A stretch of DNA of 36,383 nucleotides from Sulfobacillus sp. (lineage in GTDB: Bacteria; Bacillota; Sulfobacillia; Sulfobacillales; Sulfobacillaceae), in assembly GCA_027309085.1 (NCBI GenBank), contig DAIDDL010000042.1, positions 1-36,383 on the forward strand, written 5' to 3'. The notes below the pieces were generated by a model. The model had not been told where the DNA came from, did no database searches, and saw nothing but the letters and a program-made list of their open reading frames with translations. The stretch's first letter is position 1. Every line of letters starts with the position of its first letter. A program made the translations under genes and the position numbers. Positions 1 to 31,500 of this stretch are shown here, piece after piece.

Positions 1-173
1 TCCAAGGCATCGATTACCGTTTCTGCTCGCGGGTTCAGCGGGCGGACGGGTATGGGTATTCGTGGACCCAGATAGCGCCGACAGAAAAGGAGGATGCGGG
101 AATGGGGCAGGCTACGCCTGCCGCGCTATCCCTCCCCGGCCTGAACGCCGGGGTTTCCCGCGCAATTAGATGA
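1..173 (+). CDS. iscB: IscB-family RNA-guided nuclease, C-terminal end only (cut by window edge)
   Basis: The plus-strand frame starting at base 3 is open to a TGA at 171–173. Its first residues, QGIDYRFCSRVQRADGYGYS, align directly with the C-terminus of the complete IscB in this window (QGISYKYCRVLQRQDGWQYE), so this is the tail of a second, diverged IscB. The catalytic domains lie left of the window. The reading frame continues about 30 residues past the conserved part, through the hairpin that marks the element's right end, and stops in an ATGA overlap with the next gene. The true stop may therefore be an accident of the insertion site. The assignment rests on about 20 conserved residues plus the matching right-end hairpin. 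Confidence 0.72.
   Translation, partial: QGIDYRFCSRVQRADGYGYSWTQIAPTEKEDAGMGQATPAALSLPGLNAGVSRAIR
131..162 (+). mobile_element. Right-end hairpin of the first IscB element
   Basis: CCCCGGC (134–140) pairs with GCCGGGG (147–153) around a CTGAAC loop, followed by TTTCCCGCGC. The arrangement CCCTCCCC–stem–TTTC/TTCTCGCG matches the sequence just after the stop of the complete iscB on the other strand. Such subterminal hairpins are typical right ends of IS200/IS605-superfamily elements. The exact boundary cannot be fixed without an empty site. Confidence 0.6.
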
Positions 174-8097: not shown

Positions 8098-8117
8098 ACC
8101 CCATTTTCAATACCTTC

Positions 8118-8126
8118 ATTATATCA
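8118..8126 (-). promoter_or_regulatory. Extended –10 promoter of the phosphoglycosyltransferase gene
   Basis: The minus strand reads TGATATAAT, with TTTCAA 16 bp upstream as a weak –35. Predicted initiation near 8111 leaves only about 14 nt before the GTG start. Confidence 0.55.
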
Positions 8127-8168
8127 GGTACTGGCGCAATTGAAACCGGCGGATTATGGAACCACGGG

Positions 8169-9248
8169 CTACTGCATCTGCAGCTGAAAGGGATTCTGAG
8201 CCGAATGGGAATTGGGCACCACTTCAATCCATGTCTGGCCGGGAACAAAGCGCGCCGGCTGGCCATTGCTCAAATAATACTGGGTCGGCTGGCCCGAGCC
8301 GGCATTTTTCCATGTGCCCTGCTCGATCTTGTTGCCCAAAATCAGAGTGGCGCGGCCGCTGCCGTGCGTCTGGATTTGAATCCAGCCCGTGCCTGCCGGG
8401 TCCGGCAAGTGTTCCTCTTTGGTGTACTGAATCACAATATTGGACGCTACCACCGGTTTGCCGCTGTTCAGTCCCATCACCTGCGTATATTGGTTGCCGG
8501 AACACTCCGGACAGGAGACCCACCGGGTCCAGCCGCGCGCCGCCCCGTCCCAGCGCCACTGTTCCACGGTGTTATGGGTATTCCACGTCATGGTGATGGT
8601 CTGGTCTTGGGGAGCAGCGGATCCCGCTGGAGCGCCGAACAGCCAGTGGGGCGAAATCTTGGGGTTGCCCCAGTGGTCCTGAGCCATCAGAGCCGCCTGC
8701 GGGATGCGGACAAACAAATTGTGCGGCGCCGGCCGGGACGGCGACCGGTATCCCAAGCCGTAGGCATTGGCATCTACGTCCAGATTGTGGATGTGGTCCT
8801 GCTGAATGCTGACATATCCCGGATTAGAGGCTCCCGCGTGCACATAAGCCGCTCCCGGCCAGCCGTGCACCCAGCTGACAAAATAGGGCCGGGCGGAACG
8901 CACGGGCCCGACTTTATCCGGCTCATTGCCGTAATAAAGCAGCAGGAACCGGGAATAATAGAAGAATTCGGTATACGCTTCATAGACAACGTCGGCTGAC
9001 TCCAGCCCATACTGCGGCCGGCCGTATTCGGTGTTTTCCACCATGATTGCCACAAGCGGGCCATGATAGCGGCTAGACAGCCCCGTCAGGGGATCCGCAT
9101 TCTTCGCCAGGGCTGTCTTCGCCGCCTGAGGCGCCGCCGGTGTGGAGCGCTTGGGGTGCGCGGGGGCCGCCGCTTTATTGCTTCCGCACCCAGCCAGCAC
9201 GGTGGCGGTGCCCAGGACCAGAGCCGCCAATCCTAATATTTTCGCCAT
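8169..9248 (-). CDS. DUF3048 (YerB-like) lipoprotein
   Basis: This 359-residue exported lipoprotein has a signal peptide MAKILGLAALVLGTATVLAGC with the lipobox cysteine at 21, then an Ala/Pro/Lys linker and a globular domain starting DPLTGL. The segments PLVAIMVENTEYGRPQYGLESADVVYE, VGPVRSARPYF and AYVHAGASN are typical of DUF3048 proteins such as B. subtilis YerB, whose biochemical role is not established. The ATG at 9248 follows GGAGG; longer in-frame starts upstream would bury the lipobox and are rejected. It is divergent from the flavoprotein at 9415 and is followed by the phosphoglycosyltransferase gene, which has its own promoter. Confidence 0.87.
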   Translation of the reverse strand: MAKILGLAALVLGTATVLAGCGSNKAAAPAHPKRSTPAAPQAAKTALAKNADPLTGLSSRYHGPLVAIMVENTEYGRPQYGLESADVVYEAYTEFFYYSRFLLLYYGNEPDKVGPVRSARPYFVSWVHGWPGAAYVHAGASNPGYVSIQQDHIHNLDVDANAYGLGYRSPSRPAPHNLFVRIPQAALMAQDHWGNPKISPHWLFGAPAGSAAPQDQTITMTWNTHNTVEQWRWDGAARGWTRWVSCPECSGNQYTQVMGLNSGKPVVASNIVIQYTKEEHLPDPAGTGWIQIQTHGSGRATLILGNKIEQGTWKNAGSGQPTQYYLSNGQPARFVPGQTWIEVVPNSHSAQNPFQLQMQ

Positions 9249-9414
9249 CAGGTCATCCTCCATATCCAAAGTGCGCCTGCAACAGAATTTACCGCAAATT
9301 TTTTCCGGCCTTGGCCGTGACACCAGGAGCGCATCGCCCGCTCCCCCTTCCATGATACACTAAGGCTATTCAAGGAAATCGGGATCACGCGGTTTCCCCA
9401 CAGGGAGGTCATCC

Positions 9415-10557
9415 ATGGACGACGTCATTGTCATCGGCGCCGGACCCGCCGGCTCCACGGCGGCACGGCTTCTGGCCCGTCAGGGATTCCAGGTCCGCGT
9501 TCTCGAACAGTCTCAGTTCCCGCGCACCAAGCCGTGCGGCGGGGCCATTACGTCCCGGGCGCTTCCCCTGCTCCCCCCGGAATTTTCGGGACAGGTGCGG
9601 TCTGCCCCCACCCAGTGGACATTTCGCGGGCGCAAGGGCTCCCGCACAGTCACGACGGCCAGCCCCTACTGCTATACCGTGGAGCGGCGGTCCTTTGACT
9701 TGTGGCTGGCAGAGCAGGCCCAGGAGGCGGGAGCGGCCGTCTCCTTCCAGCAAAAGGTGGTCTCCCTGTCTTTCGACAATGCCGTCTACACTGCCGCAAC
9801 CCAGTCCGGGGAGCGCTTTCAGGCGCGGTGGCTCATCGGCGCCGACGGCGCCAAAGGAGTAACCAGCCGCCTGGTGGGTATTCCCCGGGCCCGCAACGGC
9901 GCCGCGGTGGAGACAGAAATTGCCGTTTCGTCCCAACACTTCGCCCAGTGGCAGGACCGTGTGGAGATCGACGTCACGCGCTACCCTTGGGGCTATGCCT
10001 GGGTGATTCCCAAAGGCGGCGCGCTCAATATTGGCGTCGGCTCGTTCAAAGCTGGGAAACTTCCTCCCCTGAAAGATCTGATGGCGGCCTATCTCCACCA
10101 GGTCCTGCCGGACTATTCCGCCCCCTTTGACATCCTAGCTCACCCCCTGCCTTACCGGACGCGCTATGCGCCTTTAGCGGCAGATCATGCGCTGCTCATT
10201 GGAGATGCGGCGGGACTGATGGACAGTTTTTCTGCCGAAGGCATCTATTCGGCCCTGTACAGCGCCCATGTCGCCGCGGAATCAGTAGGCCTGGCGCTGA
10301 CCGGCAAGACCCATGGCGTGCTGGGCTATGCTGGGGCCATTCATGAGCGTTTCTGGACCCAGCTCAAACCCGCGGTCAAAATGTCTCGCCTCTTCTATCC
10401 CTTGGCGGGATTTTGGGCCGACTGGTTCGTAGGGCACACTGACCTCTTGGAGGAGTATTTACAGGTCACACAGGGCCTGTCGTCCTATGACGTTCTACTG
10501 AGAAAAACAGAATCCGCACTCGCCCGCCAGCTGCACCTGCGCCCTTTAGCCCGTTAA
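9415..10557 (+). CDS. Geranylgeranyl-reductase-family FAD-dependent oxidoreductase
   Basis: This 380-residue flavoprotein has the dinucleotide-binding GAGPAG at 8–13 with the ribose-binding acid E31, the KPCGG motif at 39–43, PWGYAWVIPK at 191–200, and the second FAD motif LLIGDAAGL at 261–268. KPCGG and the YxWxxPK segment mark the geranylgeranyl reductase family, which reduces isoprenoid double bonds of lipids or quinone and chlorophyll side chains. The substrate cannot be read from the sequence. The ATG at 9415 follows AGGGAGG. It is the only plus-strand gene in an otherwise minus-strand polysaccharide region, and its last 12 bases overlap the end of the convergent glycosyltransferase gene. 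A link to polyprenyl carrier lipids is possible but is only inference. Confidence 0.87.
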   Translation: MDDVIVIGAGPAGSTAARLLARQGFQVRVLEQSQFPRTKPCGGAITSRALPLLPPEFSGQVRSAPTQWTFRGRKGSRTVTTASPYCYTVERRSFDLWLAEQAQEAGAAVSFQQKVVSLSFDNAVYTAATQSGERFQARWLIGADGAKGVTSRLVGIPRARNGAAVETEIAVSSQHFAQWQDRVEIDVTRYPWGYAWVIPKGGALNIGVGSFKAGKLPPLKDLMAAYLHQVLPDYSAPFDILAHPLPYRTRYAPLAADHALLIGDAAGLMDSFSAEGIYSALYSAHVAAESVGLALTGKTHGVLGYAGAIHERFWTQLKPAVKMSRLFYPLAGFWADWFVGHTDLLEEYLQVTQGLSSYDVLLRKTESALARQLHLRPLAR

Positions 10558-11613
10558 GGCGCTGAGCCAGGCCGCGTTCCCGTTCTGTCTCCCGGCCTGG
10601 TCGCGGGCCATGTCTGCGTGATAGAGGCGGTCTCGGGGATCTGTCACCCACTTTTCTAAGGCTCCGGCCATTCCCATGGTGTCCCCGGCACCGACCGTGA
10701 CTCCCCACGGCTTGCTGCCGGTGCCGCTGTCTTTCACCATGATCACCGGAAGTCCGCACCTAGCGGCCAGTTCCCCGTCCCACCCCGCGCCATCCAGAGA
10801 CTGCGGGGCCACAAAGATATCGGCCGCTCTCAGCCACGTTTCGGGATATTGCACCCATCCCGGCACAGTCGCCTCCACGCCCAGTGAGCGGGCCAGCCGC
10901 AACACTGAGATTCTCGACGGCCCGTCTCCCAGAAGCAGCAGCCGCAAGGGGGCCCCGCACTGGTCCTGGGCGACTTTTACGGCGTTGACCAGCACCTCCC
11001 CGCTTTTGAGCGCGTCGAGGGAGCCCATCGCCGCGATTAACGGGCGGCCCGGATCTTTCAGTCCCGGAGGCGGGGGGATTTCGGACTGCAAGGGGGGACA
11101 TGGCAGCGGCACAGCCACGGTGTGGGTGCGGGGCACCCCGTAGCGCGCAATCAAATCTTCCCGCACCTTGTCTGACACCGTGACGATCCGGCCGAGACGG
11201 GGGTAGAGACTGCCAATGCGTTCCCGGAGCGCTCCTGCGCCATCCTTCCGCACGGAGAGATAGGGGGTGAGGGGAATGTGCGCGACCAGCACCGCCCGCG
11301 CGGCCATGTTCTGCTTTCCCGAAGCCACCACCGCTTTGAACTCCATGTCGAGGTCCTGGTCCAGAATAATGCGGTCATAAAATCCGTAAAGACGTTTGAA
11401 GAGACTTCCCACATGTTTGCCAAAGTTGAGCCGCGCATTCACGGGGATATCCAGAATATCCGTGCCCGGAGTGAAAACATAGGGATAGTCCGTACGCGCC
11501 AGCGGCAAAATGTCTACCTGGTGCCCTGCTTGCTGCAAAAGAGGGCACACCCACGAAGCCAGCACAGTGCCCTCCCCGCCGGACAGCGAAGGGAGCACCC
11601 ACAGCAGGCGCAT
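10546..11613 (-). CDS. GT-B fold glycosyltransferase (GT4-like, divergent)
   Basis: This 355-residue protein has the two-Rossmann plan of GT-B glycosyltransferases: an N-terminal MRLLWVLPSLSGGEGT, then after about residue 190 a donor-binding half with PLIAAMGSLDALKSGEVL, LRLLLLGDGPSR and VPGWVQYPETWLRAADIFVAPQ. The usual GT4 E-x7-E region is degenerate (SLDGAGWDGELAARCGLPVI). The ATG at 11613 shares a base with the TAA of the upstream epimerase (TAATG), implying translational coupling; the frame extends 12 codons further upstream, but inside the epimerase. It is the last gene of the polysaccharide operon and overlaps the convergent flavoprotein gene by 12 bp. Confidence 0.8.
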   Translation of the reverse strand: MRLLWVLPSLSGGEGTVLASWVCPLLQQAGHQVDILPLARTDYPYVFTPGTDILDIPVNARLNFGKHVGSLFKRLYGFYDRIILDQDLDMEFKAVVASGKQNMAARAVLVAHIPLTPYLSVRKDGAGALRERIGSLYPRLGRIVTVSDKVREDLIARYGVPRTHTVAVPLPCPPLQSEIPPPPGLKDPGRPLIAAMGSLDALKSGEVLVNAVKVAQDQCGAPLRLLLLGDGPSRISVLRLARSLGVEATVPGWVQYPETWLRAADIFVAPQSLDGAGWDGELAARCGLPVIMVKDSGTGSKPWGVTVGAGDTMGMAGALEKWVTDPRDRLYHADMARDQAGRQNGNAAWLSALTG

Positions 11614-12539
11614 TACAGCCCGCGCTCCTTGTTGCGGAAATATTCCCACGTGGCCTGCAGTCCGCTGGCCAGGGAAGTTTCCGGCTCAAATCCCCATGCC
11701 CGGGCTTTCTGCCGCGACAACACACTGTCAGTGATGTCCCCCGGCCTCTCTGGAGCGGAGCGGTAGCCGTCATAGGGTGCCCCCGCCGCCTTCGCCAGGG
11801 CCGTGAACAAGTCGCGCACGGAGGTGCGGCTCTCCGTGCTGATGTTGTACAGCCCGGCGGGTCCAGGATTCTCCAGCCGGTGCAGGAATGCGCGGGCGAC
11901 ATCGCCCACATAGACAAAATCACGGGTTTGCCGGCCATCCCCGTGAATTTCCGGGACTTCCCCTAAAGCCAGCGCCTCGCAGAAAACCGCCACCACCCCG
12001 CCTTCTCCCTGGGTCCGCTGGCGCGGTCCGTACACATTGGCCAGGCGGAGCACTACCGCCGCCATCTTGTGCATTTGCGCAAAATGGCGCACATACTGTT
12101 CCGCCGTATATTTCGACCAGCCATAAAAACCAATCGGAAGGGCAGGGCCGTCTTCCCGCAAGGGCAGCTCGCTCACGTTGCCATAGACGGCGGCCGAGGA
12201 CGCCGTTCGGAATTGGGCAGCCCCGAGACGCTCCGCGGTCAGCAGCATGCGCAGTGTGCCTTCAAGATTCAGCTTCAGATCTGTCAGCGGGTCGGCCTCT
12301 GCGACGGGGACGCTAATCTGCGCGGCCAGGTGGATCACCGCATCGACTGGCCCGACCTGGGCCGTCCAGGCGTCTGGCTCCAGCACATCCCCATAGACAA
12401 ACCGGACTCCTGCCGGGACATTTTCACGGGTGCCGTGGCTCAGATTGTCGACGACGACCACCTCATGTCCCAGAGCCAGGGCCTGAACATTGATATGGGA
12501 GCCGATAAACCCCGCCCCCCCGCTCACTAATATCTTCAC
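11613..12539 (-). CDS. GalE-like NAD-dependent sugar-nucleotide epimerase
   Basis: This extended SDR of 308 residues has GGAGFIG at 7–13, D31 in VVVVDNLSHG, SSAAVYG (S114/S115) and a YxxxK pair Y139/K143 in FYGWSKYTAEQ. RLANVYGPRQ and HGDGRQTRDFVYVGDVARA are typical of UDP-glucose 4-epimerase and related enzymes. It would interconvert UDP-glucose and UDP-galactose, or N-acetyl or uronic forms, to feed the adjacent glycosyltransferases. The start is taken as GTG at 12539, with GGAGAGGA upstream and the N-terminus beginning directly at the nucleotide-binding strand. An ATG 36 bases upstream has no ribosome site. It is translationally coupled to the next glycosyltransferase. Confidence 0.87.
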   Translation of the reverse strand: MKILVSGGAGFIGSHINVQALALGHEVVVVDNLSHGTRENVPAGVRFVYGDVLEPDAWTAQVGPVDAVIHLAAQISVPVAEADPLTDLKLNLEGTLRMLLTAERLGAAQFRTASSAAVYGNVSELPLREDGPALPIGFYGWSKYTAEQYVRHFAQMHKMAAVVLRLANVYGPRQRTQGEGGVVAVFCEALALGEVPEIHGDGRQTRDFVYVGDVARAFLHRLENPGPAGLYNISTESRTSVRDLFTALAKAAGAPYDGYRSAPERPGDITDSVLSRQKARAWGFEPETSLASGLQATWEYFRNKERGL

Positions 12540-12580
12540 GCCATCCTCTCCTCTATGTGGTGCTGGTTGGCGCACCCCCC

Positions 12581-13681
12581 TCAGCGGGCGATGCGCTGGT
12601 AGAGCTTGTCATATTGCCGGGCAATGGTGTCCCAGTTGAAATCTTCGGCACGGGCGCGGCCCCTCGCCGCCATTTTCTGGGCGAGAGCCGGAGTGTCCAG
12701 CACTTTATTGATGGTTTGCACCCAGGCGTCCACATTCACGGGCGGCACCAAGAGCCCCGAGTCCCCCACCACTTCCGAGACGGCCGGGGTATCCCCGGCC
12801 ACCACCGGGATACCCACGGCCAGCGCCTGGGCCGGAGGCAGTCCAAATCCCTCATACGTGGAGGGAAACACAAACAGGTCCGCCGTCTGGTACAGCGCCA
12901 CCACTTCATGGCGGGTGAGATAGGGTGTCGCGAGCACATGGTCTTCAAGACCCAGTTCGGCCACTTGGCGCCCGACCCCCGAATTATTCTGGGCACCCAC
13001 CAGCACCAATTCCCCTCCGGGCCGGCGCGCGAACACTTCCCGGCATGCCTCGAGCAGAGTCGGGACATTCTTGCGCGCGTCATATCCCCCCACGTAAAGC
13101 AGCCGGGGCCGGCGGACCAACCGGTAGCGGGACGCCAGGCGCTCCATCTCCTCTACCGCCACGGGCCGGAAAAACTCCGGGTGCACCCCGTTGGGAATGA
13201 CGGTGACGTGCGCGCTGAGCTGAGGGAACAAATCCGCAATGTCATCAGCGGTGGCCTGGGAGATCGCCACGATCTTGCTGGCGTGGGGCAGGTATTTGCG
13301 GATCTGACCGAAATATATGCGCTCCCGCAGCCGTGCGTGATAGGATTGCAGACGGTACGGGATAAAGTCATGCACCGTGACCACCGTCGGTATGGAAAGT
13401 GTCAGGGGAGGGTACATCATGTACGGGATGTGCAGCAGGGAAACATCCGCCGGCGTCTTCAGAATGCCAATGTTTTCCCACCACCACTTTTGCCACAGCG
13501 CGCGTTTAGGACGGGTCTCGAGCCCTAGGCACGGCTGGTCCGGGAGCAGGGCCTGCCCGCTCCGCCCCATCCCCACCACTCCCGTGCCCAGGCGGCTCAG
13601 ACCCCAGACAAGTCCTTCCACATATTCTTCGGTGCCCGTCCCGCACTGCTCGATAATGGACACATCCATCGCAATCTTCAT
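12581..13681 (-). CDS. GT4 family glycosyltransferase
   Basis: This 366-residue GT-B enzyme has an N-terminal acceptor half with TVVTVHDFIPY and VAISQATADDIADLFP. The donor half has RPRLLYVGGYDARKNVPTLL, ELVLVGAQNN and the GT4 signature FPSTYEGFGLPPAQALAVGIPVVA, in which the glutamates or their equivalents hold the nucleotide sugar. This pattern is common in mannosyl- and rhamnosyltransferases of capsule loci, but the sugar cannot be deduced. Its ATG is 21 bp after the preceding glycosyltransferase, with a weak AGGGGAA upstream, consistent with one operon. Confidence 0.9.
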   Translation of the reverse strand: MKIAMDVSIIEQCGTGTEEYVEGLVWGLSRLGTGVVGMGRSGQALLPDQPCLGLETRPKRALWQKWWWENIGILKTPADVSLLHIPYMMYPPLTLSIPTVVTVHDFIPYRLQSYHARLRERIYFGQIRKYLPHASKIVAISQATADDIADLFPQLSAHVTVIPNGVHPEFFRPVAVEEMERLASRYRLVRRPRLLYVGGYDARKNVPTLLEACREVFARRPGGELVLVGAQNNSGVGRQVAELGLEDHVLATPYLTRHEVVALYQTADLFVFPSTYEGFGLPPAQALAVGIPVVAGDTPAVSEVVGDSGLLVPPVNVDAWVQTINKVLDTPALAQKMAARGRARAEDFNWDTIARQYDKLYQRIAR

Positions 13682-13702
13682 GCCGATCGCAAAAATTCCC
13701 CT

Positions 13703-14842
13703 CTACTCATCGTTTGCGCTATCATACCGCATCGCGGCCCCGGTGGGTACTGTGCCTCCCGGGGAGAGCGCTTCGCGCACAATGCGGGTCATGCGCTCTT
13801 CAAACACCGCCGGCCGGAACTGCTCCGTGTGCCGCCGGATCTCCTCCCCATTCCAGGCAATGGCCTCGGCCCGCTGGATAGCCTCTATCAGGGACGGGGT
13901 TTCCTGCCGGTCAAAGAGCACCCCTGTCGTGCCGTCGCGCACGGTATCGAGCACCCCGCCCCGGCCATAGGCTATTACGGGGCGGCCCGCAGCCTGCATT
14001 TCGACAGGGACAATGCCGAAGTCCTCTTCTCCCGGGAAGATGAGCGCCTTGGCTCCCGCCATCAGAGAAGCCGCTGCCTGGTCATTGACCGGTCCTGCAA
14101 ACTCCACATGGCGCCCTGCCAGGCGGGCCAGACGAGATTTTTCCGGGCCATCCCCGGCCACGACCAGTTTGATGCCCAGCTCATTGGCGGCTGCCACCGC
14201 CAGATCCACCCGCTTGTAGGACACGAGCCGCGACAGGACAAGATAATAGGAACCGGGCTGATCCTGGGGATGGAAGCGGTCAATGTCGACGGGGGGGAAG
14301 ACCACCGTGGACGGACGCCGGTAATGCTTCCAGATGCGCCTTGCCACGGTGGTGGAGTTGGCCACCAAAACGTCGGCCCGGTCGGCTGACAGCCTGTCCC
14401 ACATCCGGACGTAGTGAAATACCGGGCCCATCAGCCTGCGGGTGAGACCCTTGGCTTCCCGGTTCCGGTACTCGTGGTACAAATCCCAGGCATAGCGCAT
14501 CGGGGTATGAATATAGGAGACATGCACGGTCTCGGCCCGGGTCAACACCCCTTTGGCCAGGGCAGCGGAGGACGAAATCACCAGGTCATAGTCGGAGAGG
14601 TCGAACTGCTCGAATCCGTAGATCATAAACGGCAGGTACCGGTTGTACCAGCGCACCGCGTTGGGCAGTTTCTGCACGAAGGTGGGATAAATCGTCCGCT
14701 GCTGCAAATACGGCGACAGGCGGGAGCGGTCAACGACCCCGGTGAAAATCGGCGCGTCCGGATACATGCGGGCGAGAGCCTCCAGCACCCGTTCCGCCCC
14801 TCCCATCGTCACAAGCCAGTCATGCACGAGAGCGACTTTCAT
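13703..14842 (-). CDS. GT4 family glycosyltransferase (WbaZ-like)
   Basis: This 379-residue GT-B enzyme begins MKVALVHDWLVTMGGAERVLEAL. The acceptor half contains SYIHTPMRYAWDLYHEY and VLVANSTTVARRIWKHYRRP, a combination seen in WbaZ-like mannosyltransferases. The donor half has YYLVLSRLVSYKRVDLAV, KLVVAGDGPEK and FPGEEDFGIVPVEMQAAGRPVIAY. It probably adds a mannose-like sugar to the lipid-linked repeat unit on the cytoplasmic face. Only 3 bp separate its start from the stop of the polymerase gene, so it is in the same operon. Confidence 0.9.
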   Translation of the reverse strand: MKVALVHDWLVTMGGAERVLEALARMYPDAPIFTGVVDRSRLSPYLQQRTIYPTFVQKLPNAVRWYNRYLPFMIYGFEQFDLSDYDLVISSSAALAKGVLTRAETVHVSYIHTPMRYAWDLYHEYRNREAKGLTRRLMGPVFHYVRMWDRLSADRADVLVANSTTVARRIWKHYRRPSTVVFPPVDIDRFHPQDQPGSYYLVLSRLVSYKRVDLAVAAANELGIKLVVAGDGPEKSRLARLAGRHVEFAGPVNDQAAASLMAGAKALIFPGEEDFGIVPVEMQAAGRPVIAYGRGGVLDTVRDGTTGVLFDRQETPSLIEAIQRAEAIAWNGEEIRRHTEQFRPAVFEERMTRIVREALSPGGTVPTGAAMRYDSANDE

Positions 14843-14845
14843 TGA

Positions 14846-16300
14846 TTAAGCCTTTCTGTATCTGTCCCAGGCTGCGCTGACCAGCGCCAGGGCAAGAAGC
14901 AGGGGCAGGACGACCCCTTGGTCGATGAGAAAATCCACCCAGTTGTGGATGACAAAAGCGGTCAGGGTGCCGAAAGATCCGACCAGCACAGCATACCAGT
15001 AAGCAGGCAGCTTGGCTGCCTGCTCCCGCACCAGCCGCACCGCCGATGCCAGCCAGGTCCACTCCAGCCACAATCCGGCGATGATGCCGCCAATGCCCAA
15101 ATCCGCTCCCCATTCCAGGTACAGATCGTGGGCCATGGGCGGGATCCCGGCCAGGCCTTTAGGCGGGTGGTGCTGAATAAAGAGGTGGAAGTTGCCGAGT
15201 CCCACCCCCAAAAGAGGATGCTGGCGTATGGCTGAAATGGCCGACTTCCAGATCAGAAGCCGCTGGTCGGTGTCAAAGTGGCCCGAGGGATTGATGATCG
15301 CGGTAACGGTTGTCTTAAGGCGCTCCAGGGTGTTCTTGTGAGCTCCCACGTACAGTGAGGTATGACTCAGGTCCACCTTGCCCAGGAAAAACACCAGCAC
15401 GAACATGGCGACCGGAATGAGAATGCTGTACGCCGCAAAGTTCTTCACCTGTCCCCATCCCCTGGTCACCCCAATCAGGATGCCCATAAAGAAGACCGCT
15501 CCCGCATCGGCTACCCAAGAGCCGCGCGAATAGGAAATAACCACCCCCAGGGCGACGAGGGTCAAGGCGATTTTCAGCCACCCTTTTCTTAGAGTCGCCG
15601 GCCCCAGCACCACCAGCGCCGCCAGCATGGGAAAAGTCTGGTCGCTGAATCCGCCGAAAACATTGGGCTGCCCAAAGAATCCCGTGGCGCGGACATGATG
15701 CACATCGACGATATTATAGACGGGCCCTAATTGCAGCATGAACTGGTACACGCCGTAAAGGGTGACGGCGCCCACCACTGCAAACAGCGCCCCCAGATAC
15801 CAATTCCAGATGGTCTCGTCGGTGCCGTGTTCCCGGAATACCGCCACCATCACCACAAAAAATTCGATATACTCCAGAATTTTAATCACCGTGCCGAAGT
15901 GGCTGATGCTGGTGGCGAGAGACAGCACGGAGAGCACCAGAAGAAACAGCAGGGGCCAGCGGAAAGGCCGTGGAAAAAATGTCCGCGCCAGGCCGGAAAC
16001 CCCTTCTGCCCAGTGATCTCTGGCCAGTTTGAGGGCCATCACCAACGCCATAAAATCCGCCGCATAGAATTTATGGTGGTGCAGCACCATGCCCAAAGGA
16101 AAGGGGGCGGCTAAAATGTAGAGCACGGCGGCGGCTGGCAACGATACCCAAGCCAGCCAGATGTAGCCAGCAAAAAAGAGCACGGCGCCCACAGCGCCAA
16201 ACCGGATAGCGACCAGTGCGCCTATTCCCGCTAAAGCTAAGGGCTGAATGACCTGCTTGGATAACATAGGATGCTGACTTGACAGTGATTCGGCTTGCAT
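14846..16300 (-). CDS. O-antigen ligase/polymerase-like membrane protein (Wzy/WaaL family)
   Basis: This 484-residue protein is dominated by hydrophobic segments, about ten to twelve membrane helices. A long extracytoplasmic loop (about 325–400) contains LLIWKSAISAIRQHPLLGVGLGNFHLFIQHHPP, the signature region of Wzy_C/O-antigen ligase proteins. It would join lipid-linked repeat units on the outer face of the membrane. The ATG at 16300 follows GGGGGAGGAAG at proper spacing. It sits between two glycosyltransferase genes. No Wzx flippase or Wzz/Wze regulator is in the window, so the export system must be encoded elsewhere. Confidence 0.87.
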   Translation of the reverse strand: MQAESLSSQHPMLSKQVIQPLALAGIGALVAIRFGAVGAVLFFAGYIWLAWVSLPAAAVLYILAAPFPLGMVLHHHKFYAADFMALVMALKLARDHWAEGVSGLARTFFPRPFRWPLLFLLVLSVLSLATSISHFGTVIKILEYIEFFVVMVAVFREHGTDETIWNWYLGALFAVVGAVTLYGVYQFMLQLGPVYNIVDVHHVRATGFFGQPNVFGGFSDQTFPMLAALVVLGPATLRKGWLKIALTLVALGVVISYSRGSWVADAGAVFFMGILIGVTRGWGQVKNFAAYSILIPVAMFVLVFFLGKVDLSHTSLYVGAHKNTLERLKTTVTAIINPSGHFDTDQRLLIWKSAISAIRQHPLLGVGLGNFHLFIQHHPPKGLAGIPPMAHDLYLEWGADLGIGGIIAGLWLEWTWLASAVRLVREQAAKLPAYWYAVLVGSFGTLTAFVIHNWVDFLIDQGVVLPLLLALALVSAAWDRYRKA

Positions 16301-16330
16301 TGGTGCTTCCTCCCCCGTCTTATGCGCCGG

Positions 16331-17416
16331 TTATTGTCCCGCGGCCCGCAGGTACACTGCCCGCGTCTGTTTGGCTGCGCGGCTCCACGTGTAGTTCCCG
16401 ACATTCTCCCGGCCCCGGGCCGCCCAGACGGCACGCAGGTCAGGGTTTCCCCACAACTGCCCCATATTCTCCGCAATCTCGTCAATGCTCAGCGGGTCCA
16501 CGATCACCGCCGCATTTTTAGCCACTTCCGCCAGGGCCCCCCGGTTGGAACAAATGACAGGAGCGCCCCACCCCATCGCCTCCAGCACGGGCAGGCCAAA
16601 TCCTTCATACAGGCTTGGGTAGACCAAGGCAAGACTGTGCCGGTACAAAGACGCCAGCTCGTTGTCCGACACATACTCCAGAAAACGGACCTGGGACGCA
16701 ATGCCGAGACGGCTAGGAGCTTCCAGCACAGGCTCGTAGAGCCACCCTTTCCTGCCGGCAATCAGCAGGTCGACAGCCCCTTCCAGATGCTGGGCGCGGA
16801 CAAGCCGCGCAAAAGCTTCAATCACCCGGGTAAAATTCTTGCGGGGCTCCAACGTGCCCACCGCGACGAAATAGGGACGGGGATTGGGGGGCGCAGACGA
16901 TGGGACGCCGCGGAGAATGACCCCGTGCGGCACCACCGTGATTTTCGCCTCCGGCACCTTCAAAATGTCGTGGAGGTCCCGAGCCGTGGCCTGGCTGGGC
17001 ACAATGATGTGGCCGGCCGCCCGCACTGAAAGCGCCATCAGACGTCTTTTAACCAACGCCTGCGCTGGCGGGAACATGTCCGGGTACTTGTACGCCACCA
17101 GATCGTGCACCGTGCTGACACTGTTCCGGACGCGGCGCAAAACCGGCACCTGATAGTCGGGGAAATGCACGACATCATAAGCCTTCCCGGACAGCAGGCC
17201 CTGAAGCCGCCACTGTTCAAAAAACATGCGTCTGCGGCTTTGGCTGAGCGGCCCGGGCGGGTAGATCATCGCAGCGCCGCCAATGGCCTGACCTCTGAGA
17301 GCAATCGCCTCAACAGTGTCCGCCGCCCCAAATTCCGCGAGGTAAGCGTCAAATAGGGAGAATATATATCGGCCAATACCGGCCGATTGAGGATGGTATA
17401 GCAAGGCGTCGACCAC
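16331..17416 (-). CDS. GT4 family glycosyltransferase, first gene of the polysaccharide operon
   Basis: This 361-residue GT-B enzyme starts MVDALLYHPQSAGIGRYIFSLF. It has STVHDLVAYKYPDMFP and IIVPSQATARDLHDIL in the acceptor half, then PYFVAVGTLEPRKNFTRVIEAF and YPSLYEGFGLPVLEAMGWGAPVICS in the donor half. The EPRKN and YEGFGLP motifs place it in GT4, near mannosyltransferases. The start is a GTG at 17416, preceded by GGGGGGAGAC; the spacing is slightly long. A plausible promoter lies 50–75 bp upstream. It heads the six-gene minus-strand run to 10546. Confidence 0.9.
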   Translation of the reverse strand: MVDALLYHPQSAGIGRYIFSLFDAYLAEFGAADTVEAIALRGQAIGGAAMIYPPGPLSQSRRRMFFEQWRLQGLLSGKAYDVVHFPDYQVPVLRRVRNSVSTVHDLVAYKYPDMFPPAQALVKRRLMALSVRAAGHIIVPSQATARDLHDILKVPEAKITVVPHGVILRGVPSSAPPNPRPYFVAVGTLEPRKNFTRVIEAFARLVRAQHLEGAVDLLIAGRKGWLYEPVLEAPSRLGIASQVRFLEYVSDNELASLYRHSLALVYPSLYEGFGLPVLEAMGWGAPVICSNRGALAEVAKNAAVIVDPLSIDEIAENMGQLWGNPDLRAVWAARGRENVGNYTWSRAAKQTRAVYLRAAGQ

Positions 17417-17685: not shown

Positions 17686-20600
17686 ATGAGACAAACCCGG
17701 GCCCGGCGATATCGCCACTCCCTATTTTTTCGTCACCATGCCACTCACCGGAGCGCAGGACCAAAACTGGCCTTGATCTCTTCCGCCTTCCTACTAGCGG
17801 CATTTCCCGCCGCCGCTTTCGCCCAGAGCCCCGTGACGCTTTCAGGCTACACATTGGGCCAAGGGGACTCCACTATGACCTTGAGCGGGCAGGATTTTGG
17901 CTCCGTGGCCGCCACCGTCACCATTGACGGCCAGAATGCCTCCGTCACCAGCTGGAGCCCTTCATCCATTACTCTCGATATACCCGCCGGGGCCGGCCCC
18001 GGAGCAATTCAGGTCAGCACCGCCCAAGGCCTCGTGTCCAACACCGTGCCTTTTTCCGGAATCAGCCGCGGTGCGTATGCCCTGTCCTCCAACGGCACGG
18101 TCACGACCTCCGGCAATGCGCCTTTTTATGGAGATCTGTCAACAGTCGGGGCCTCTACGTCTTCACCAGCCGTGCAGCTAATCCCCACCCCCAACTATCA
18201 GGGTTACTGGATTCTGACGCAAAGCGGCCAGGTTTATGCTTTTGGCAATGCCACCAGCTTTTCCTCCCAAATTCCGTCTTCATCGCAGGCCGTAGCCATG
18301 GCCGCCATGCCATCGGGCCAGGGCGCCTTTGTCCTCACCCAAAACGGCACGGTCTATGCGCTGGGCTCCGCACAAGTTTACGGCAGCGCCTCGGGGCCGT
18401 CGCCTGTCAGCATTGCCAGCACTCCGAACGGCCTCGGCTACTGGATTGTCACCGCGTCCGGCGTTGTTGAAGCGTTCGGGGACGCTGCGAATTACGGGAG
18501 CCTCCCCCAATCCGCCGTGCCCCAAGTCTCCACTTCCTCGTACGCGGATGGCACCTTGCTGCAGCAAACTGGCACACCGGCTGTGTGGGTGGTGGAGAAC
18601 GGCGCCCTCCACCACATTCCAGATTCCGCCATTATGGACGCCATGGGACTGTCATGGAGTCATATCCAGCAGGTCTCCTCCCTGGCTGGGATGAGTGTGG
18701 GGCAGCCCCTGGTCACCCCTTACCCGTCGGGCACTTTGCTGCAGCAAACCGGCCAGAGCGCGATTTATTTGGTCATGAACGGCGTGATGCGCCATGTGGC
18801 CAACGGAGCCGTATTCTCCCAAATGGGACTGTCGTATGGCTCTGTGGTGCAGGTCAGCCAAATCAATCCCAACTGGCCCCAAGGCCCTGCCCTGACCGCT
18901 CCCGCCGCCTACTATCCGTCCGGCACTCTCCTGCGGGCTCAGAACTCCCCCGCCGTCTACATGGTGAATGATGGCACCATGGAACATATTCTCTCGGGGG
19001 CCGTGCTCTCGGGCATGGGTTACCAGTGGAGCCAGATCCGCATCGTTTCCAACCTGCCCCCGTTGCCGTATGGACCCGCTCTCGCCTCCCCGGCCCGGGC
19101 CTACCCGACAGGCACATTAGTGCGGCAGGCGGGACAGCCAGCCGTGTACCTGGTGCAAAATGGCGCTCTCCGGCACATACTCAGTCCCCAGGCCCTCTAC
19201 GCTCTAGGTTTCAGCTTTAACCAGGTCGTGGCAGCGCCGTCTCTGCAGGGGATGAAGATGGGCGCAGCCCTTGACAGCACCGGAGTTCCCGCTGGCTCCT
19301 CCTCCTCCTCCTCCAGCACCAGCGGCCAAGTTGCCGACCCCCCTGCGGTCGTGGACTTTGCGGCCACAGCCAGCGGCCAAGGGTACTGGATTCTCCAGGC
19401 TAACGGGGTCGTGACAGCCTTTGGCAACGCCCAGACCTTCGGGGAACCCCCGGCTGGCACGCAGGCCGCAAAGCTTGTCGTCAGTTTCGACCAGAAAGGC
19501 TACGACGTGATTACGAAACAGGGACAAGTTCTGACGTTTGGCGACGGCCCCTCTCTGAGTGTGCCCCCGGCGCCGGTATCCGTGGTGGACACCCCGGTTT
19601 CCACAGTGGCCGCCGTGTCTCCGTCCACCCCGGCCACTCCAGTGTCCCCGGCCCCCTCCTCTCCCGTCGTCGCGCCTTCCGGATTTCTGTCGATGGGCTA
19701 CGGGTTCTTCGTCGACAACTTCCCCAACGGCTCCAGCAACTCGTCCTACGAAGATCTCCTGCAGCATGGGACCGCACTCTCTGCCATCAATCCCGCATGG
19801 TTCAATCTGAACCAGAATCCCGGTGGATCGTGGCAGATCACCAGCTGGTCCACATCGGGTCCCGACGCCGCCCCCGCCATCAACGGCCTCAACAATATCC
19901 AGACCGTGACCGCCCAGGCCCACCAGGAAGGCGTCATGGTGCTGCCATCCATTGGCAACTATTACAATCCCGGCAGTGGCCCCATCACCACACCCGCTGA
20001 GGATGCCAGCCTAGTCCAGCAGATCGTGTCGCTGGTCACCCAGGACGGGTTCGACGGCATCACTGTGGACTTTGAAAACAATGGGGATGGCGGTTTGAGC
20101 TTGGCTCAGGCCTCGGCGCAATACACCAACTTCATCCAGCAGCTCGGCACGGCGTTGCACGCCGCCAACAAACTGCTCATGATCGCGGTCTACCCGTCGT
20201 CCTATCCGAATACTTTGTACAACTACGCAGCTCTAGCCCCTTATGTGAACTACATCAACATGATGACGTACCCCGAGGACAATGCCAGCACCTGGCCCGG
20301 CCCGACGGCTGGGTATCCCTGGGTGCAGTCTTTAGTCCAATCGGCCCTCGCCGACGGGGTCAGTCCCCAGCAGATTATCTTGGGCGTCGCCCCCTATGGA
20401 CACGAATGGACCGTCACCAACCAGGGCGTTACCGGTGACAGCGCCGTCAGCAATCGGGCCGTGCAGAGTCTCTTGCAGCAGCAGGGGATCACCCCCCTAT
20501 GGGACCCTGTGCAGCAAGAAATCGTCTTTACCGCCGGACCTCTGGCCCAGCTTCCACCCGCCGGACTGTCCATCCAGGACGACAGCAAGTCTTTGCCCCA

Positions 20601-20994
20601 AGTCGCCAACTTGCAGAACCTCCTGAATTTTACCCTGCTGGAGTACGCCATTCAGAACAACCAGACACCGCCGGCCCTGCTTCCCACCGACGGCTATTAC
20701 GGCCCGCTGACCACAGCCGCCGTCACCGCCTTCCAGCAGGACTTCAATGTCAGCGGGGCAACCCCGGGGAACTATGATGCCGCCACAGCGCAGGAACTGC
20801 AGCAGCTGATCAACCAGTGGAATATCGGTCAGAACATCTACTGGGATGAGACGTCCCAGTCCACATCCGACCGCATGCAGCTCGCCCTGCAGAATTCTCT
20901 TGGCGGCATCGCCGCTTGGCGCCTGCCTTTTGAAACCAATGGATACTGGACCGATTTGAGCCAATTGACTCCCATCGCCCATATGCAGCCATAA
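17686..20994 (+). CDS. Secreted multidomain GH18 protein with nested repeat and peptidoglycan-binding domains
   Basis: This 1,102-residue protein has a signal peptide (hydrophobic core about 28–46) with a long basic N-region, then an IPT/TIG-like immunoglobulin domain (about 48–124). Blade-like repeats of the form GYWxxxxxGxVxxFGxAxxYG follow at about 128, 172, 213 and 250, and again at 565 and 604. Between the fourth and fifth blades are four copies of a roughly 62-residue repeat, GTLxxQxGxPAVYxVxNGxxRHI, starting near 288, 348, 412 and 475. After Ser- and Pro-rich linkers comes a GH18 barrel (about 666–1095) with DGITVDFE (D790, D795, catalytic E797), as in YaaH-like spore-cortex hydrolases. 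A peptidoglycan-binding-like domain (about 970–1040, DGYYGPLTTAAVTAFQQDF) lies inside the barrel, before its last strand (LGGIAAWRLPFE). It probably binds or cleaves cell wall or polysaccharide. AGGAGG precedes the ATG. Confidence 0.85.
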   Translation: MRQTRARRYRHSLFFRHHATHRSAGPKLALISSAFLLAAFPAAAFAQSPVTLSGYTLGQGDSTMTLSGQDFGSVAATVTIDGQNASVTSWSPSSITLDIPAGAGPGAIQVSTAQGLVSNTVPFSGISRGAYALSSNGTVTTSGNAPFYGDLSTVGASTSSPAVQLIPTPNYQGYWILTQSGQVYAFGNATSFSSQIPSSSQAVAMAAMPSGQGAFVLTQNGTVYALGSAQVYGSASGPSPVSIASTPNGLGYWIVTASGVVEAFGDAANYGSLPQSAVPQVSTSSYADGTLLQQTGTPAVWVVENGALHHIPDSAIMDAMGLSWSHIQQVSSLAGMSVGQPLVTPYPSGTLLQQTGQSAIYLVMNGVMRHVANGAVFSQMGLSYGSVVQVSQINPNWPQGPALTAPAAYYPSGTLLRAQNSPAVYMVNDGTMEHILSGAVLSGMGYQWSQIRIVSNLPPLPYGPALASPARAYPTGTLVRQAGQPAVYLVQNGALRHILSPQALYALGFSFNQVVAAPSLQGMKMGAALDSTGVPAGSSSSSSSTSGQVADPPAVVDFAATASGQGYWILQANGVVTAFGNAQTFGEPPAGTQAAKLVVSFDQKGYDVITKQGQVLTFGDGPSLSVPPAPVSVVDTPVSTVAAVSPSTPATPVSPAPSSPVVAPSGFLSMGYGFFVDNFPNGSSNSSYEDLLQHGTALSAINPAWFNLNQNPGGSWQITSWSTSGPDAAPAINGLNNIQTVTAQAHQEGVMVLPSIGNYYNPGSGPITTPAEDASLVQQIVSLVTQDGFDGITVDFENNGDGGLSLAQASAQYTNFIQQLGTALHAANKLLMIAVYPSSYPNTLYNYAALAPYVNYINMMTYPEDNASTWPGPTAGYPWVQSLVQSALADGVSPQQIILGVAPYGHEWTVTNQGVTGDSAVSNRAVQSLLQQQGITPLWDPVQQEIVFTAGPLAQLPPAGLSIQDDSKSLPQVANLQNLLNFTLLEYAIQNNQTPPALLPTDGYYGPLTTAAVTAFQQDFNVSGATPGNYDAATAQELQQLINQWNIGQNIYWDETSQSTSDRMQLALQNSLGGIAAWRLPFETNGYWTDLSQLTPIAHMQP

Positions 20995-21047: not shown

Positions 21048-21722
21048 ATGATTAACGTCCCGAGAACCCTCAAATCGATCGCACTCCTATCGGGTGCTCT
21101 GACCCTGGCAGGGTGCGGCTTCCATCAGGCGGCCGCTCCCCGCCCCGCGGACACTCCGCACCACCACGGCTCCGTGTCTTCCACGGCTCCGTCGCCATCG
21201 CCCAGCCCCTCCCCTTCGCTGCAGGGAAGCAGCCCGTCTGCATCGTCGTCACCAGCCCCGTCCCTCTCCCAGTCGTCCCCCGCCCCGGCCGAGCAGTCTG
21301 TGGCGGCACCGCCGCCCCCGGGAGCGGGATCATACACCAGCCTGAAGGTGTCTGTGCTCGGGGCAACCCCCGAAGGAGAATCCTCGGCATCCGGGCACCT
21401 GCTGAGCGTCTACCGTCTGACACTCCAGGTGGAAAACCCCACATCCGGCATGATCGGACTGGCCCTCAACGATTTCAGTGTGCAGAGCGGCCACTCCGCT
21501 TATGCTTGGAATGACTATGCGGCCAAGGGGCTGACGGCGGGTAATTCTCTGTTTGCCTTTCCGCTGACGCCGCAGAGCCCGGCATCGGATGTGACCCAAA
21601 TCATTCCCGGCCGCCCTCTAACCGCAGACATTACCGTCCAGGTGCCGGCTGCTGCCGCCTACCAGCTTGACTGGAACGGCACCTCAGACGCCGTAGGCCC
21701 GCAAGCCCGCTTCAATTCCTGA
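21048..21722 (+). CDS. Lipoprotein with Ser/Pro-rich linker and immunoglobulin-like domain
   Basis: This 224-residue lipoprotein has a signal sequence ending TLAGC, so C23 would be lipidated. It is followed by a low-complexity linker rich in Ser, Pro and Ala (about 30–95), typical of a surface spacer. The C-terminal domain (about 97–224: YTSLKVSVLGATPEG, LTLQVENPTSGMIGLALNDFSVQSG, LTADITVQVP) resembles the beta-sandwich of DUF4352-type lipoproteins. No catalytic motif is seen. The start is the ATG at 21048, preceded by GGAAAGG; an ATG 13 codons earlier would displace the signal peptide. It follows the GH18 gene by 53 bp on the same strand, so the two are probably co-transcribed. Confidence 0.8.
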   Translation: MINVPRTLKSIALLSGALTLAGCGFHQAAAPRPADTPHHHGSVSSTAPSPSPSPSPSLQGSSPSASSSPAPSLSQSSPAPAEQSVAAPPPPGAGSYTSLKVSVLGATPEGESSASGHLLSVYRLTLQVENPTSGMIGLALNDFSVQSGHSAYAWNDYAAKGLTAGNSLFAFPLTPQSPASDVTQIIPGRPLTADITVQVPAAAAYQLDWNGTSDAVGPQARFNS

Positions 21723-23615: not shown

Positions 23616-23700
23616 GGCTTCGCTCTTCTTTCTCCTAGGTATTTCGTCCTGCCGCCTGCCACGGTATCATAGACCATAGATGTCAAGGAGGCTTAGAACG

Positions 23701-25508: not shown

Positions 25509-25546
25509 CGTTTTGATTCCCTCCCATTATGTCTGTGCAAGCCAGG

Positions 25547-26428: not shown

Positions 26429-26471
26429 GCTCTCCCGACCTCCTCCTCAATGGCCATCTCAGCTGACTGGA

Positions 26472-27758: not shown

Positions 27759-27782
27759 CTTGTATTACCCCTCCTTTAGGAT

Positions 27783-29072: not shown

Positions 29073-30119
29073 TTACATCTTCCCTGCCAGATCCTCCAGC
29101 AGTGTCAGCGCCCTGTGGTCCCAGCTGTGGCCCGTCTGCACAGCGGCCGCAGCATTGACTTGGCACTGCCGGCGCGCGGGTTCCGAATCCAGAAGCTGTG
29201 TCAGGCCCCGGGCCAGGGCTTGGGCGTCATAGGGGGTGCGCAGGCCAATCTGGTAGCGTTCGACAAACTGGGCGGCCTCCGACTGGTCCGTGACCACGAC
29301 GGGGATCCCGTAAGACAGGTAGTCCATGAGCTTCAGCGGCCAGGCCAGGCGGGTATACGCCGTGTCGGGCCGGGGAATGACTGCCACATCAGCCCGCTGG
29401 TACCAGGGCACCAAGTCCGGACCCGACGCCTCAGTCAGCTGAATATAGGCAGGCAGCGTGCCCTGCGGCCACTCCTGCCGCCGCATCACCAGCGCCAGTC
29501 TGGCATTGGGCAATGTCTGGTGCACAATCCGCATCGCGTCGATCAGCAAGGCCACCCCGTCATACGCACCTCCCGCACCCACGTACAGGATCCAGGGGTT
29601 CTGTCCTCTCCCCACCGCATCGGGCCGGGAAATACAGTGGGCCCCAGGCGGCAGCAGCCGCACCTCCCGGCGGGGCAGCAATTCTCCGAGTCCCATGGTG
29701 GGCACGTACAAAATGTCGGCGCAGCCCGCATAAGCCCGCAGGGTGACCCCGTAGAGCACTTTCAGGGCATGTCCTCCGGGGCCCTTGATGGGATACAGGT
29801 CAGGAAACTTCTGGTAATAATCCCGCACAAAAATGGCCAGGGGCAAGCCCGCGCGCTTTACCCTCCACAAAAACCGCAGGTCAGCCCACGTAGCCGTGGA
29901 ACTCGCGCTCTCTACGTAGACCGCGTCCACTTGCTTTAGCAGCCCGCGCTTCCATGCTTCTTGCAGCACGGGTCGCCTCTGGCGGCGCGTCCCGGTAATC
30001 AGGGTCACCGTCGCATGCCGGGCCAAGGCCTCCGCCATCCGGTACGTCCGGACTTTCGGGGCCCTGTCGAGGGAGTCAATCGGGTACTGCCCCAAAACCA
30101 AAATGTGTTTCACCGTCAT
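29073..30119 (-). CDS. GT-B fold glycosyltransferase (GT4-like)
   Basis: This 348-residue protein has a GT-B plan: HILVLGQYPIDSLDRAPKVRTYRMAEAL at the N-terminus, and in the donor half NPWILYVGAGGAYDGVALLIDAM, LVPWYQRADVAVIPRPDTAYTRLAWPLKLMDYLSYGIPVVVTD. The K-x-MDY-x-SYG-IPVV segment replaces the classical GT4 EGFG signature. The ATG at 30119 overlaps the stop of the upstream glycosyltransferase (ATGA), so the pair is translationally coupled. It is the last gene of this two-gene unit. A role in surface polysaccharide assembly is inferred from family and context. Confidence 0.83.
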   Translation of the reverse strand: MTVKHILVLGQYPIDSLDRAPKVRTYRMAEALARHATVTLITGTRRQRRPVLQEAWKRGLLKQVDAVYVESASSTATWADLRFLWRVKRAGLPLAIFVRDYYQKFPDLYPIKGPGGHALKVLYGVTLRAYAGCADILYVPTMGLGELLPRREVRLLPPGAHCISRPDAVGRGQNPWILYVGAGGAYDGVALLIDAMRIVHQTLPNARLALVMRRQEWPQGTLPAYIQLTEASGPDLVPWYQRADVAVIPRPDTAYTRLAWPLKLMDYLSYGIPVVVTDQSEAAQFVERYQIGLRTPYDAQALARGLTQLLDSEPARRQCQVNAAAAVQTGHSWDHRALTLLEDLAGKM

Positions 30120-31357
30120 CCTTCTGAGTGCGGCTGGAAACTTTTGAGCCACTCCTCCGCGATGCGCTGCCATGTGTAGTGGTCCTGGACAAAGTTCCGG
30201 CCCGCCTGTCCCATAGCCGCCCACAACGCATCATCCATGTCGGCCATCTGGACAACGGCCCCGGCCAGCCCTGCGCCATCTTCAGGCTCCACCACCGTCC
30301 CGCCTCCCGCGGTTAGAATCAGCTCAGCCATCTCACCCTCGCCCACATAAATCACAGGCACCTGCGCCGACCAGGCCGGGAAGACCTTGGACGGCCGGGC
30401 CCCTTTAAATAAGGGGTGCTTGCGCAGCGGCACCACCACACCCCTGGCGATTCCAAAATACTCGGGCATGTTCTCTACGGGCTGCAGTGCGTCAAACCAC
30501 ACGTTATCCAGCCCGGCTTCACGGACCTGGCGCGTGAGTTCCGCCTTCACCGGCCCTTCCCCCACCAGGAGAAAGGCGATATCCGTGCGGTCTTGGAGGC
30601 GTTTGGCCGCCTCTACGACAACCTCCAGCCCCTGGGCATATCCCATCGTGCCAGGGTAGAGAAAAACCTTCTTGTGATGCGCGCCGAACCGGTTGAGCAG
30701 AGCTTCGCCCGGGGCGACCCGGGGAAATTTGGCGAGGTCCACGCCGTTGGGAAAGAACAGCACCTTCTCCGGAGCAATCCGGCCGGTATCCCTCACGGCT
30801 TGCTGAATCCCCTCGGTCACCGTGGACACATAGCCAGCGTGGGCATACAGAGACAATTCCAAATTCTTAGTGAGCCCTACCAGGAGGGGATTCGTCACCA
30901 AACCCAATGCCACCGCAGATTCTGGCCAGAGGTCGGACACTGACAGAATATAGGGCACATGAAACAAGCGGGAGTATAATCTTCCGGTGATCCCCAAAAA
31001 CAGGGGGGGCGACTCAATTAAGAGGTAATCGGGATGCGGCAGCTTGCGCAGTCCCGAAAAACTTGTCACCACGAAGGAAAAATAGTTCAGCAGGCGCCAC
31101 CAAAACCGCCGGTTGGGCGGGACACGCCAGATCCATGTGCGGATCACGGGAATGCCGCGGACAACCTCCTCCACCTGCATTCCCCGCCCCTGGCGGGACG
31201 ACGCGCCCAAGTGGTGGGACATCGCGGCGACGACCGAGACCCGGTGGCCCTTGCGTGTGAGTTCTTGAGCCATGGCTTCCAATCTGAGTGAGGCGGCGCC
31301 GGGCTCAGGCGGGTAGTACTGCGTTAAGAACACAAAGTGCAATGCGCGCTCTGCCAA
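30116..31357 (-). CDS. GT4 family glycosyltransferase (WcaI/WbuB-like)
   Basis: This GT-B enzyme of about 413 residues begins LHFVFLTQYYPPEPGAASLRLEAMAQEL and has IESPPLFLGITG, VSDLWPESAVALG, KVLFFPNGVDLAKF, KVFLYPGTMGYAQGLEVVV and PSKVFPAWSAQVPVIYVG, a set typical of WcaI/WbuB-like transferases for exopolysaccharide or O-antigen. I place the start at the TTG at 31357, which follows GGGGGAG by 8 bp. A longer frame to 31465 has no ribosome site and would run into the terminator hairpin of the upstream operon. It is coupled to the next gene by an ATGA overlap. Confidence 0.85.
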   Translation of the reverse strand: MAERALHFVFLTQYYPPEPGAASLRLEAMAQELTRKGHRVSVVAAMSHHLGASSRQGRGMQVEEVVRGIPVIRTWIWRVPPNRRFWWRLLNYFSFVVTSFSGLRKLPHPDYLLIESPPLFLGITGRLYSRLFHVPYILSVSDLWPESAVALGLVTNPLLVGLTKNLELSLYAHAGYVSTVTEGIQQAVRDTGRIAPEKVLFFPNGVDLAKFPRVAPGEALLNRFGAHHKKVFLYPGTMGYAQGLEVVVEAAKRLQDRTDIAFLLVGEGPVKAELTRQVREAGLDNVWFDALQPVENMPEYFGIARGVVVPLRKHPLFKGARPSKVFPAWSAQVPVIYVGEGEMAELILTAGGGTVVEPEDGAGLAGAVVQMADMDDALWAAMGQAGRNFVQDHYTWQRIAEEWLKSFQPHSEG

Positions 31358-31459
31358 AACGATATCTCCCCCGCCCTCTAATTTGCTCTGTCCATCATAC
31401 CTGATCAGAACCCATTCTCCCATTAAAGCATGCCAGCCTGAAAATTCCATGAGAACGCA

Positions 31460-31500
31460 AAACACCCAACAACTGGGTTCTGCCCTGCTGTTGGGTGTTT
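31460..31500 (-). terminator. Rho-independent terminator of the yhbH–spoVR–prkA operon
   Basis: A 12-bp perfect inverted repeat, AAACACCCAACA (31460–31471) and TGTTGGGTGTTT (31489–31500), encloses a 17-nt loop. On the minus strand the 3' arm ends in TTTTG. It lies about 80 bp after the prkA stop. Confidence 0.85.

Follow-up and report, generated by a model that had tools for sequence, protein, structure and literature searches.

The window, a stretch of 36,383 nucleotides from Sulfobacillus sp., encodes a modular GH18 protein whose layout is real, unusual and conserved across the family. Twice in this protein one domain is set inside another: four copies of a repeat of about 62 residues interrupt a propeller, and a PG_binding_1 domain interrupts the GH18 barrel. 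Such nesting had been proposed in an earlier note made from the sequence, and both cases are confirmed by AlphaFold2 and by insert-free relatives, the one in the barrel also by Pfam. We accept both nestings because natural relatives exist without each insertion, and we regard them, the domain order and the conservation of the catalytic residues as established.

Domain layout of the GH18 protein

The start codon of the reading frame at 17686 is directly preceded by an AGGAGG ribosome site. The signal peptide was recognized by eye, with predicted cleavage at about the junction of AFA and QS, and the AlphaFold2 model places a helix at residues 26-38. The protein continues with an IPT/TIG domain, blades 1-4, the four repeats, blades 5-6, the first part of GH18, PG_binding_1 and the second part of GH18. 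The model of the whole protein was built from a shallow alignment of 25 orthologous sequences and has a mean pLDDT of 80.8; its pTM of 0.46 (0.46-0.49 over the models made) makes the placement of the domains relative to each other, and the distances between them, unreliable. All features are listed in Table 1.

Table 1. Features of the GH18 gene and its surroundings, in positions of the window.
Feature	Position	Strand	Evidence or remark
Exopolysaccharide locus: Bac_transf, DUF3048 protein, glycosyltransferases, epimerase, Wzy	6688..17416	-	
GH18 reading frame, 1102 aa	17686-20994	+	Coordinates checked as right
Start, Arg-rich n-region and signal peptide (residues 1-46)	17686..17823	+	Sequence; signal by eye
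IPT/TIG (residues 59-124)	17860..18057	+	Pfam PF01833, E 7e-7, 29.5 bits (cutoff 20.9)
Propeller blades 1-4, RCC1-like GYW..G.V..FG units (residues 128-275)	18067..18510	+	
62-aa repeat 1	18544..18726	+	Profile match 6.5e-28
62-aa repeat 2	18724..18906	+	Profile match 2.2e-25
62-aa repeat 3	18916..19098	+	Profile match 7.3e-28
62-aa repeat 4	19105..19284	+	Profile match 4.7e-25
Propeller blades 5-6 and closing strand 632-636 (residues 554-640)	19345..19605	+	
Disordered Pro/Ser/Ala linker (residues 641-663)	19606..19674	+	pLDDT <50 across 642-660
GH18 part 1, strands 1-7 and start of CID-like sheet (residues 664-955)	19675..20550	+	
PG_binding_1 domain (residues 958-1046)	20557..20823	+	Pfam PF01471
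GH18 part 2 (residues 1047-1096): strand 1048-1054, helix 1057-1069, barrel strand 8 1074-1077	20824..20973	+	
Partner lipoprotein, lipobox LAGC	21048..21722	+	Start conserved in relatives
Two more glycosyltransferases of the exopolysaccharide locus	29073..31465	-	Directly past the lipoprotein in most relatives

A six-bladed propeller split by four repeats

The six GYW…FG blades had been described as split after the fourth by the four 62-residue repeats, and this reading is borne out by AlphaFold2 and VIA-align, with four blades before the four-repeat domain and two after it. Three-stranded blades were modelled at residues 162-187, 202-227, 240-265, 555-580 and 594-619. Blade 1 has two strands only (129-143), and the C-terminal strand 632-636 would supply its third. 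In the AlphaFold2 model the blades thus make up a single closed six-bladed propeller, whose termini exchange strands 129-143 with 632-636. Modelled alone (residues 126-642), the propeller part reached a mean pLDDT of 83.1. It matched the six-bladed Pizza design with a Z of 17.2 and an rmsd of 3.2 over 218 of 251 residues (VIA-align 2); since this match covers the model range 3..512, the alignment jumps the repeat insert. The six-bladed propellers of LRP6 and LDLR gave a Z of about 16 (VIA-align). Comparison of blade with blade resulted in scores 2-14 SD above shuffles, the lowest, near chance, being that of blade 1 with blade 6. A profile search of the genome found the blades nowhere else.

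With RCC1-like propellers the window protein appears to share the blade motif, as indicated by HERC1 and RCC1 matches and by an RCC1_2 Pfam score of 23.5 bits (cutoff 22), which holds for the whole protein, no individual stretch reaching the cutoff. The six-bladed fold is likewise shared with RCC1-like/GYW six-bladed propellers; RCC1 itself has seven blades. Unlike RCC1-like propellers, that of the window protein has about 270 residues inserted between its blades 4 and 5. A viral structure library returned only RCC1/WD40-like propellers and phage proteins without clear relevance.

The four repeats are alike throughout, all pairs scoring 17-24 SD above shuffled controls, and their strand anchors in the AlphaFold2 model lie at residues 291, 351, 415 and 478, at a spacing of 60-64. 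Within the genome, a profile search detected them in the window protein and one paralogue only. No convincing match was obtained in Pfam, NCBIfam or PDB sequences, including a search of PDB with the repeat profile. A hemopexin-like four-bladed propeller had been considered from sequence, and no hemopexin was among the structure matches listed. Foldseek paired the repeats with EccB1 and EccB5 (E 3.3e-6, prob 1.00), yet the overall TM was 0.12-0.15 and many propellers score alike. The EccB sequence profile did not match the window's own repeats; it did match the repeat region of a relative (L108; 6.6e-7 / 8.3e-6), at 28.5 bits far under the curated cutoff of 154. EccB1 carries four such repeats, and these are similar to PlyCB, a phage protein that binds the wall (PMC4769845). 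The number of four is thus common to the periplasmic repeats of EccB, a type VII secretion protein, and to the window protein, whereas the latter is a secreted enzyme in which no EccB core domain was found. The 62-residue repeats may be distant kin of the EccB repeats, which we take as a lead and not as membership. If they are, a wider wall-binding role is suggested for the EccB repeat.

Secreted proteins ending in the 62-residue repeats were also seen among the relatives (L110:2130-3677, L111:1476-3086 and, in part, L108:2234-3805). By eye, these proteins resemble CAP proteins in their N-terminal parts; those of L108 and L110 had no Pfam match.

A peptidoglycan-binding domain inside the GH18 barrel

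The GH18 Pfam match runs in one stretch over residues 696-1080 (E 2.2e-25, 90.5 bits, cutoff 29.6) and encloses the PG_binding_1 match at 971-1037 (29 bits, cutoff 23). In the AlphaFold2 model, barrel strand 7 (897-901) is followed by a small CID-like sheet (904-911, 914-922, 945-953, 1048-1054), the helices of the PG-binding domain (971-990, 1007-1019, 1032-1044) lie between the hairpin strands 945-953 and 1048-1054, and barrel strand 8 (1074-1077) comes after them. The barrel is therefore still open at residue 960, and Pfam and the model agree with the claim that a PG-binding-like domain at about 970-1040 splits it before its last strand. Superposition on chitinase 5jh8 gave a Z of 34.2 with an rmsd of 2.4 over 302 of 317 residues, the model range 666..1096 reaching across the PG-binding domain (VIA-align 2).

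In GH18 proteins of subfamily A a CID follows strand 7 and precedes helix 7; it walls the substrate cleft on one side and deepens it (PMC2805709). The PG-binding domain extends this already known insertion site: the insertion after barrel strand 7 is common to subfamily A chitinases and the window protein, but the latter sets a second domain, PG_binding_1, into a hairpin of the insertion region. The earlier statement that GH18 enzymes carry binding domains at their ends and not inside the barrel is consequently right for an ordinary GH18 protein of the same genome with N-terminal PG-binding domains (L005), and wrong in that subfamily A already carries an insertion in the same region. The mean pairwise identity of the PG_binding_1 domain is 57%, compared with 54-55% for the surrounding barrel. 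Not every PG_binding_1 domain is a proven peptidoglycan binder.

That the insertions may position substrate at the active site, as had been suggested, is plausible by analogy with the CID. Because the CID lines the cleft, contact with the substrate would be open to a PG-binding domain that has grown out of it. The propeller and the repeats are tethered to the barrel via the disordered linker (642-660), and so the model does not place them near the active site.

Catalytic residues and structural neighbours

The closest structures are chitinases and the spore cortex enzyme SleL (Z 33.8, VIA-align), and chitinase-like lectins such as Ym1 also share the fold; by sequence, the closest are 4wiw, 4q6t and YdhD. 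Across 25 sequences there is no change at D795, E797 (codon at 20074-20076 on the + strand), Y862, Y904 or W908, and W1078 is found in all 24 that extend to it. Since these residues are invariant, we consider from sequence that the window GH18 is probably an active enzyme. The catalytic Asp and Glu of DxxDxDxE are kept, with Thr at the place of ChiB D140, as in YdhD, and the Asp usual after MxY (the D215 equivalent) is replaced by Pro or Gly.

The window protein resembles SleL, YaaH and YdhD in the GH18 barrel and in a DxxxxDFE motif with a non-Asp residue at the ChiB D140 place. It differs from them in having no LysM (no Pfam match at E up to 1), in carrying the PG-binding domain within the barrel, in the IPT domain, propeller and repeats in front of GH18, and in a gene context of exopolysaccharide and not spore genes.

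Relatives and distribution

Relatives were scored with module profiles. Six contiguous blades without repeats occur together with a nested GH18 in L100 (genome G041) and after an IPT domain in L112 (G025). A basal nested GH18 protein (L097, G015; 1642-5211) has IPT followed by six uninterrupted blades, read by eye, and ends in three CWB2 wall-binding repeats. Conversely, four repeats and a nested GH18 without blades are found in L032 and in the genome's own paralogue (L002, contig C102; L081:8739-11574), and a nested GH18 with neither blades nor repeats in L105, L106 and L113. Five other GH18 genes of the genome have no barrel insert. The bacterial enzyme thus combines two independent domain-in-domain insertions, each backed by natural relatives that are free of it.

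In a tree built by a quick method on the barrel without its insert, with some long branches, the nested GH18 enzymes all fall on the same side of a branch with good support (SH-aLRT 97, one change). The base of this clade is where the blade-only proteins split off, and the repeat-in-propeller form arises within it. Likely, the barrel insert came first, the uninterrupted propeller was present early and the repeats entered the propeller later.

Of 34 family genomes, 25 encode the full layout, and a neighbouring family adds one more genome (G037). The relatives with a species name are Sulfobacillus thermotolerans Kr1, at 75-76% identity, and S. benefaciens AMDSBA4. GH18 with the insert is one clade, confined among the searched sets to the order Sulfobacillales, and a search of genome contigs returned Sulfobacillus-group loci only. 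Two limited samples were also searched. In 299 genomes of the phylum (145 with GH18 matches, at most five candidates scored each) no match from outside the family extended across the insert, all stopping by profile position 284 of 429, and among 72,556 plasmid records none of the 27 GH18 matches crossed it. A literature search for a GH18 enzyme with an inserted PG-binding domain found none.

The exopolysaccharide locus and a partner lipoprotein

The GH18 gene is divergent from the Wzy/glycosyltransferase cluster. Its position beside an exopolysaccharide locus, pointed out earlier, proved to be conserved: Wzy lies within about 10 kb of it in 16 of the 22 genomes where this could be decided and away from it in six, three further genomes having contig ends there. 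Of the 34 family genomes, 33 have Wzy, among them genomes without the GH18 protein, and thus the polysaccharide is independent of the GH18 gene.

The lipoprotein gene that follows accompanies the GH18 protein in 24 of the 25 genomes that have it and was found in none of the nine without it (Fisher p 2e-7, with no correction for relatedness). Its conserved start is residue 14 of a longer reading frame from 21009. Downstream of the blade-less paralogue on contig C102 lies a lipoprotein gene of this kind too, with no exopolysaccharide locus nearby. The hydrolase and lipoprotein are thereby a conserved pair tied to the polysaccharide locus in bioleaching bacteria that form biofilms. The Sulfobacillus group is acid-loving and mineral-leaching, and to our knowledge the matrix genetics of such bacteria is hardly known.

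Two further observations concern the locus itself. A protein of 229 aa within it (9409-10098, - strand) has no Pfam or NCBIfam match. Between the lipoprotein and the distal glycosyltransferases, positions 21806-28802 hold an aldo/keto reductase, a PfkB kinase, a GH32-like protein, an ABC sugar transporter and a LacI regulator. The fetched relatives do not have these genes here, except for the reductase in S. thermotolerans, and they are seemingly a sugar-uptake cassette inserted into the locus.

Possible function

We tentatively favour, at somewhat less than an even chance, a secreted GH18 enzyme held at the cell surface as part of the envelope and exopolysaccharide assembly kit of the Sulfobacillus family, where it would cut a GlcNAc-containing envelope polymer. 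The PG-binding domain and the four repeats would tether the enzyme to the wall, the propeller would be a docking platform for carbohydrate or protein, and the partner lipoprotein would hold the enzyme at the membrane, so placed that it could cut beta-linked GlcNAc in polymer within reach. The GH18 fold, the invariant catalytic residues, the conserved PG_binding_1 domain, the adjacency to Wzy, the co-occurring lipoprotein (also at the blade-less paralogue) and the CWB2 repeats of L097 support this. Counted against it are the Thr at the ChiB D140 place, the Pro or Gly after MxY, the six genomes with the gene elsewhere, Wzy without the gene, and PG_binding_1 domains that are not all proven binders. 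GH18 catalysis normally requires an N-acetyl group on the cleaved sugar. The polysaccharide secreted by S. acidophilus is built mainly from mannose and glucose and contains only some glucosamine (PMC13226494). As such a polymer suits main-chain cleavage by GH18 poorly, peptidoglycan or a glycan linked to it, in places where polysaccharide is exported or anchored, is slightly more likely as the substrate than the main chain of the exopolysaccharide.

The composition of that polymer also weighs against a hydrolase that trims the product of the neighbouring locus and, like PelA for Pel, sets the length and the release of its chains, which we consider possible and on balance unlikely. The gene's conserved place in the locus speaks for trimming, and hydrolases of exopolysaccharide loci act in this way elsewhere (PelA, PMC9894940; PgaB, PMC5933820). 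In addition, the S. acidophilus biofilm is bound by the lectins WGA and ECA and the polymer contains glucosamine. The gene lies elsewhere in six genomes, however, and its binding modules are of wall type. PelA and PgaB, too, are glycoside hydrolases encoded with polysaccharide machinery, but in Gram-negative systems without a known nested wall-binding domain; both belong to GH families other than GH18.

A more specific version of the surface-held enzyme seems doubtful. Here the four-repeat domain would be a mobile, EccB-related envelope-binding module outside type VII secretion, used in secreted hydrolases and other surface proteins, and the nested PG-binding domain would make wall contact part of the GH18 cleft, restricting cleavage to places where wall meets nascent exopolysaccharide.

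A role as non-catalytic scaffold or lectin, with barrel, propeller and repeats binding glycans of the envelope, is very unlikely: the many binding modules, the departures at the D140 and D215 equivalents and the fold of lectins such as Ym1 would fit it, but D795 and E797 are invariant in the 25 sequences and YdhD carries the same Thr. Equally improbable in our view is a nutritional chitinase for fungal or other foreign chitin, which the fold, its chitinase neighbours and the one comment on Sulfobacillus GH18 found in print, suggesting the S. thermosulfidooxidans genes as chitinases for fungal lysates (PMC5418355), would favour, against the PG-binding domain, the lipoprotein partner, the position in the exopolysaccharide locus and Pfam matches among which there is no chitin-binding family.

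Other elements of the window

An IscB RNA-guided nuclease gene lies at 3780-5207 on the - strand (NCBIfam, 376.9 bits, cutoff 175). Its upstream end is overlapped by a HEARO/omega RNA at 5050-5324 on the same strand (Rfam RF02033, 93.9 bits).
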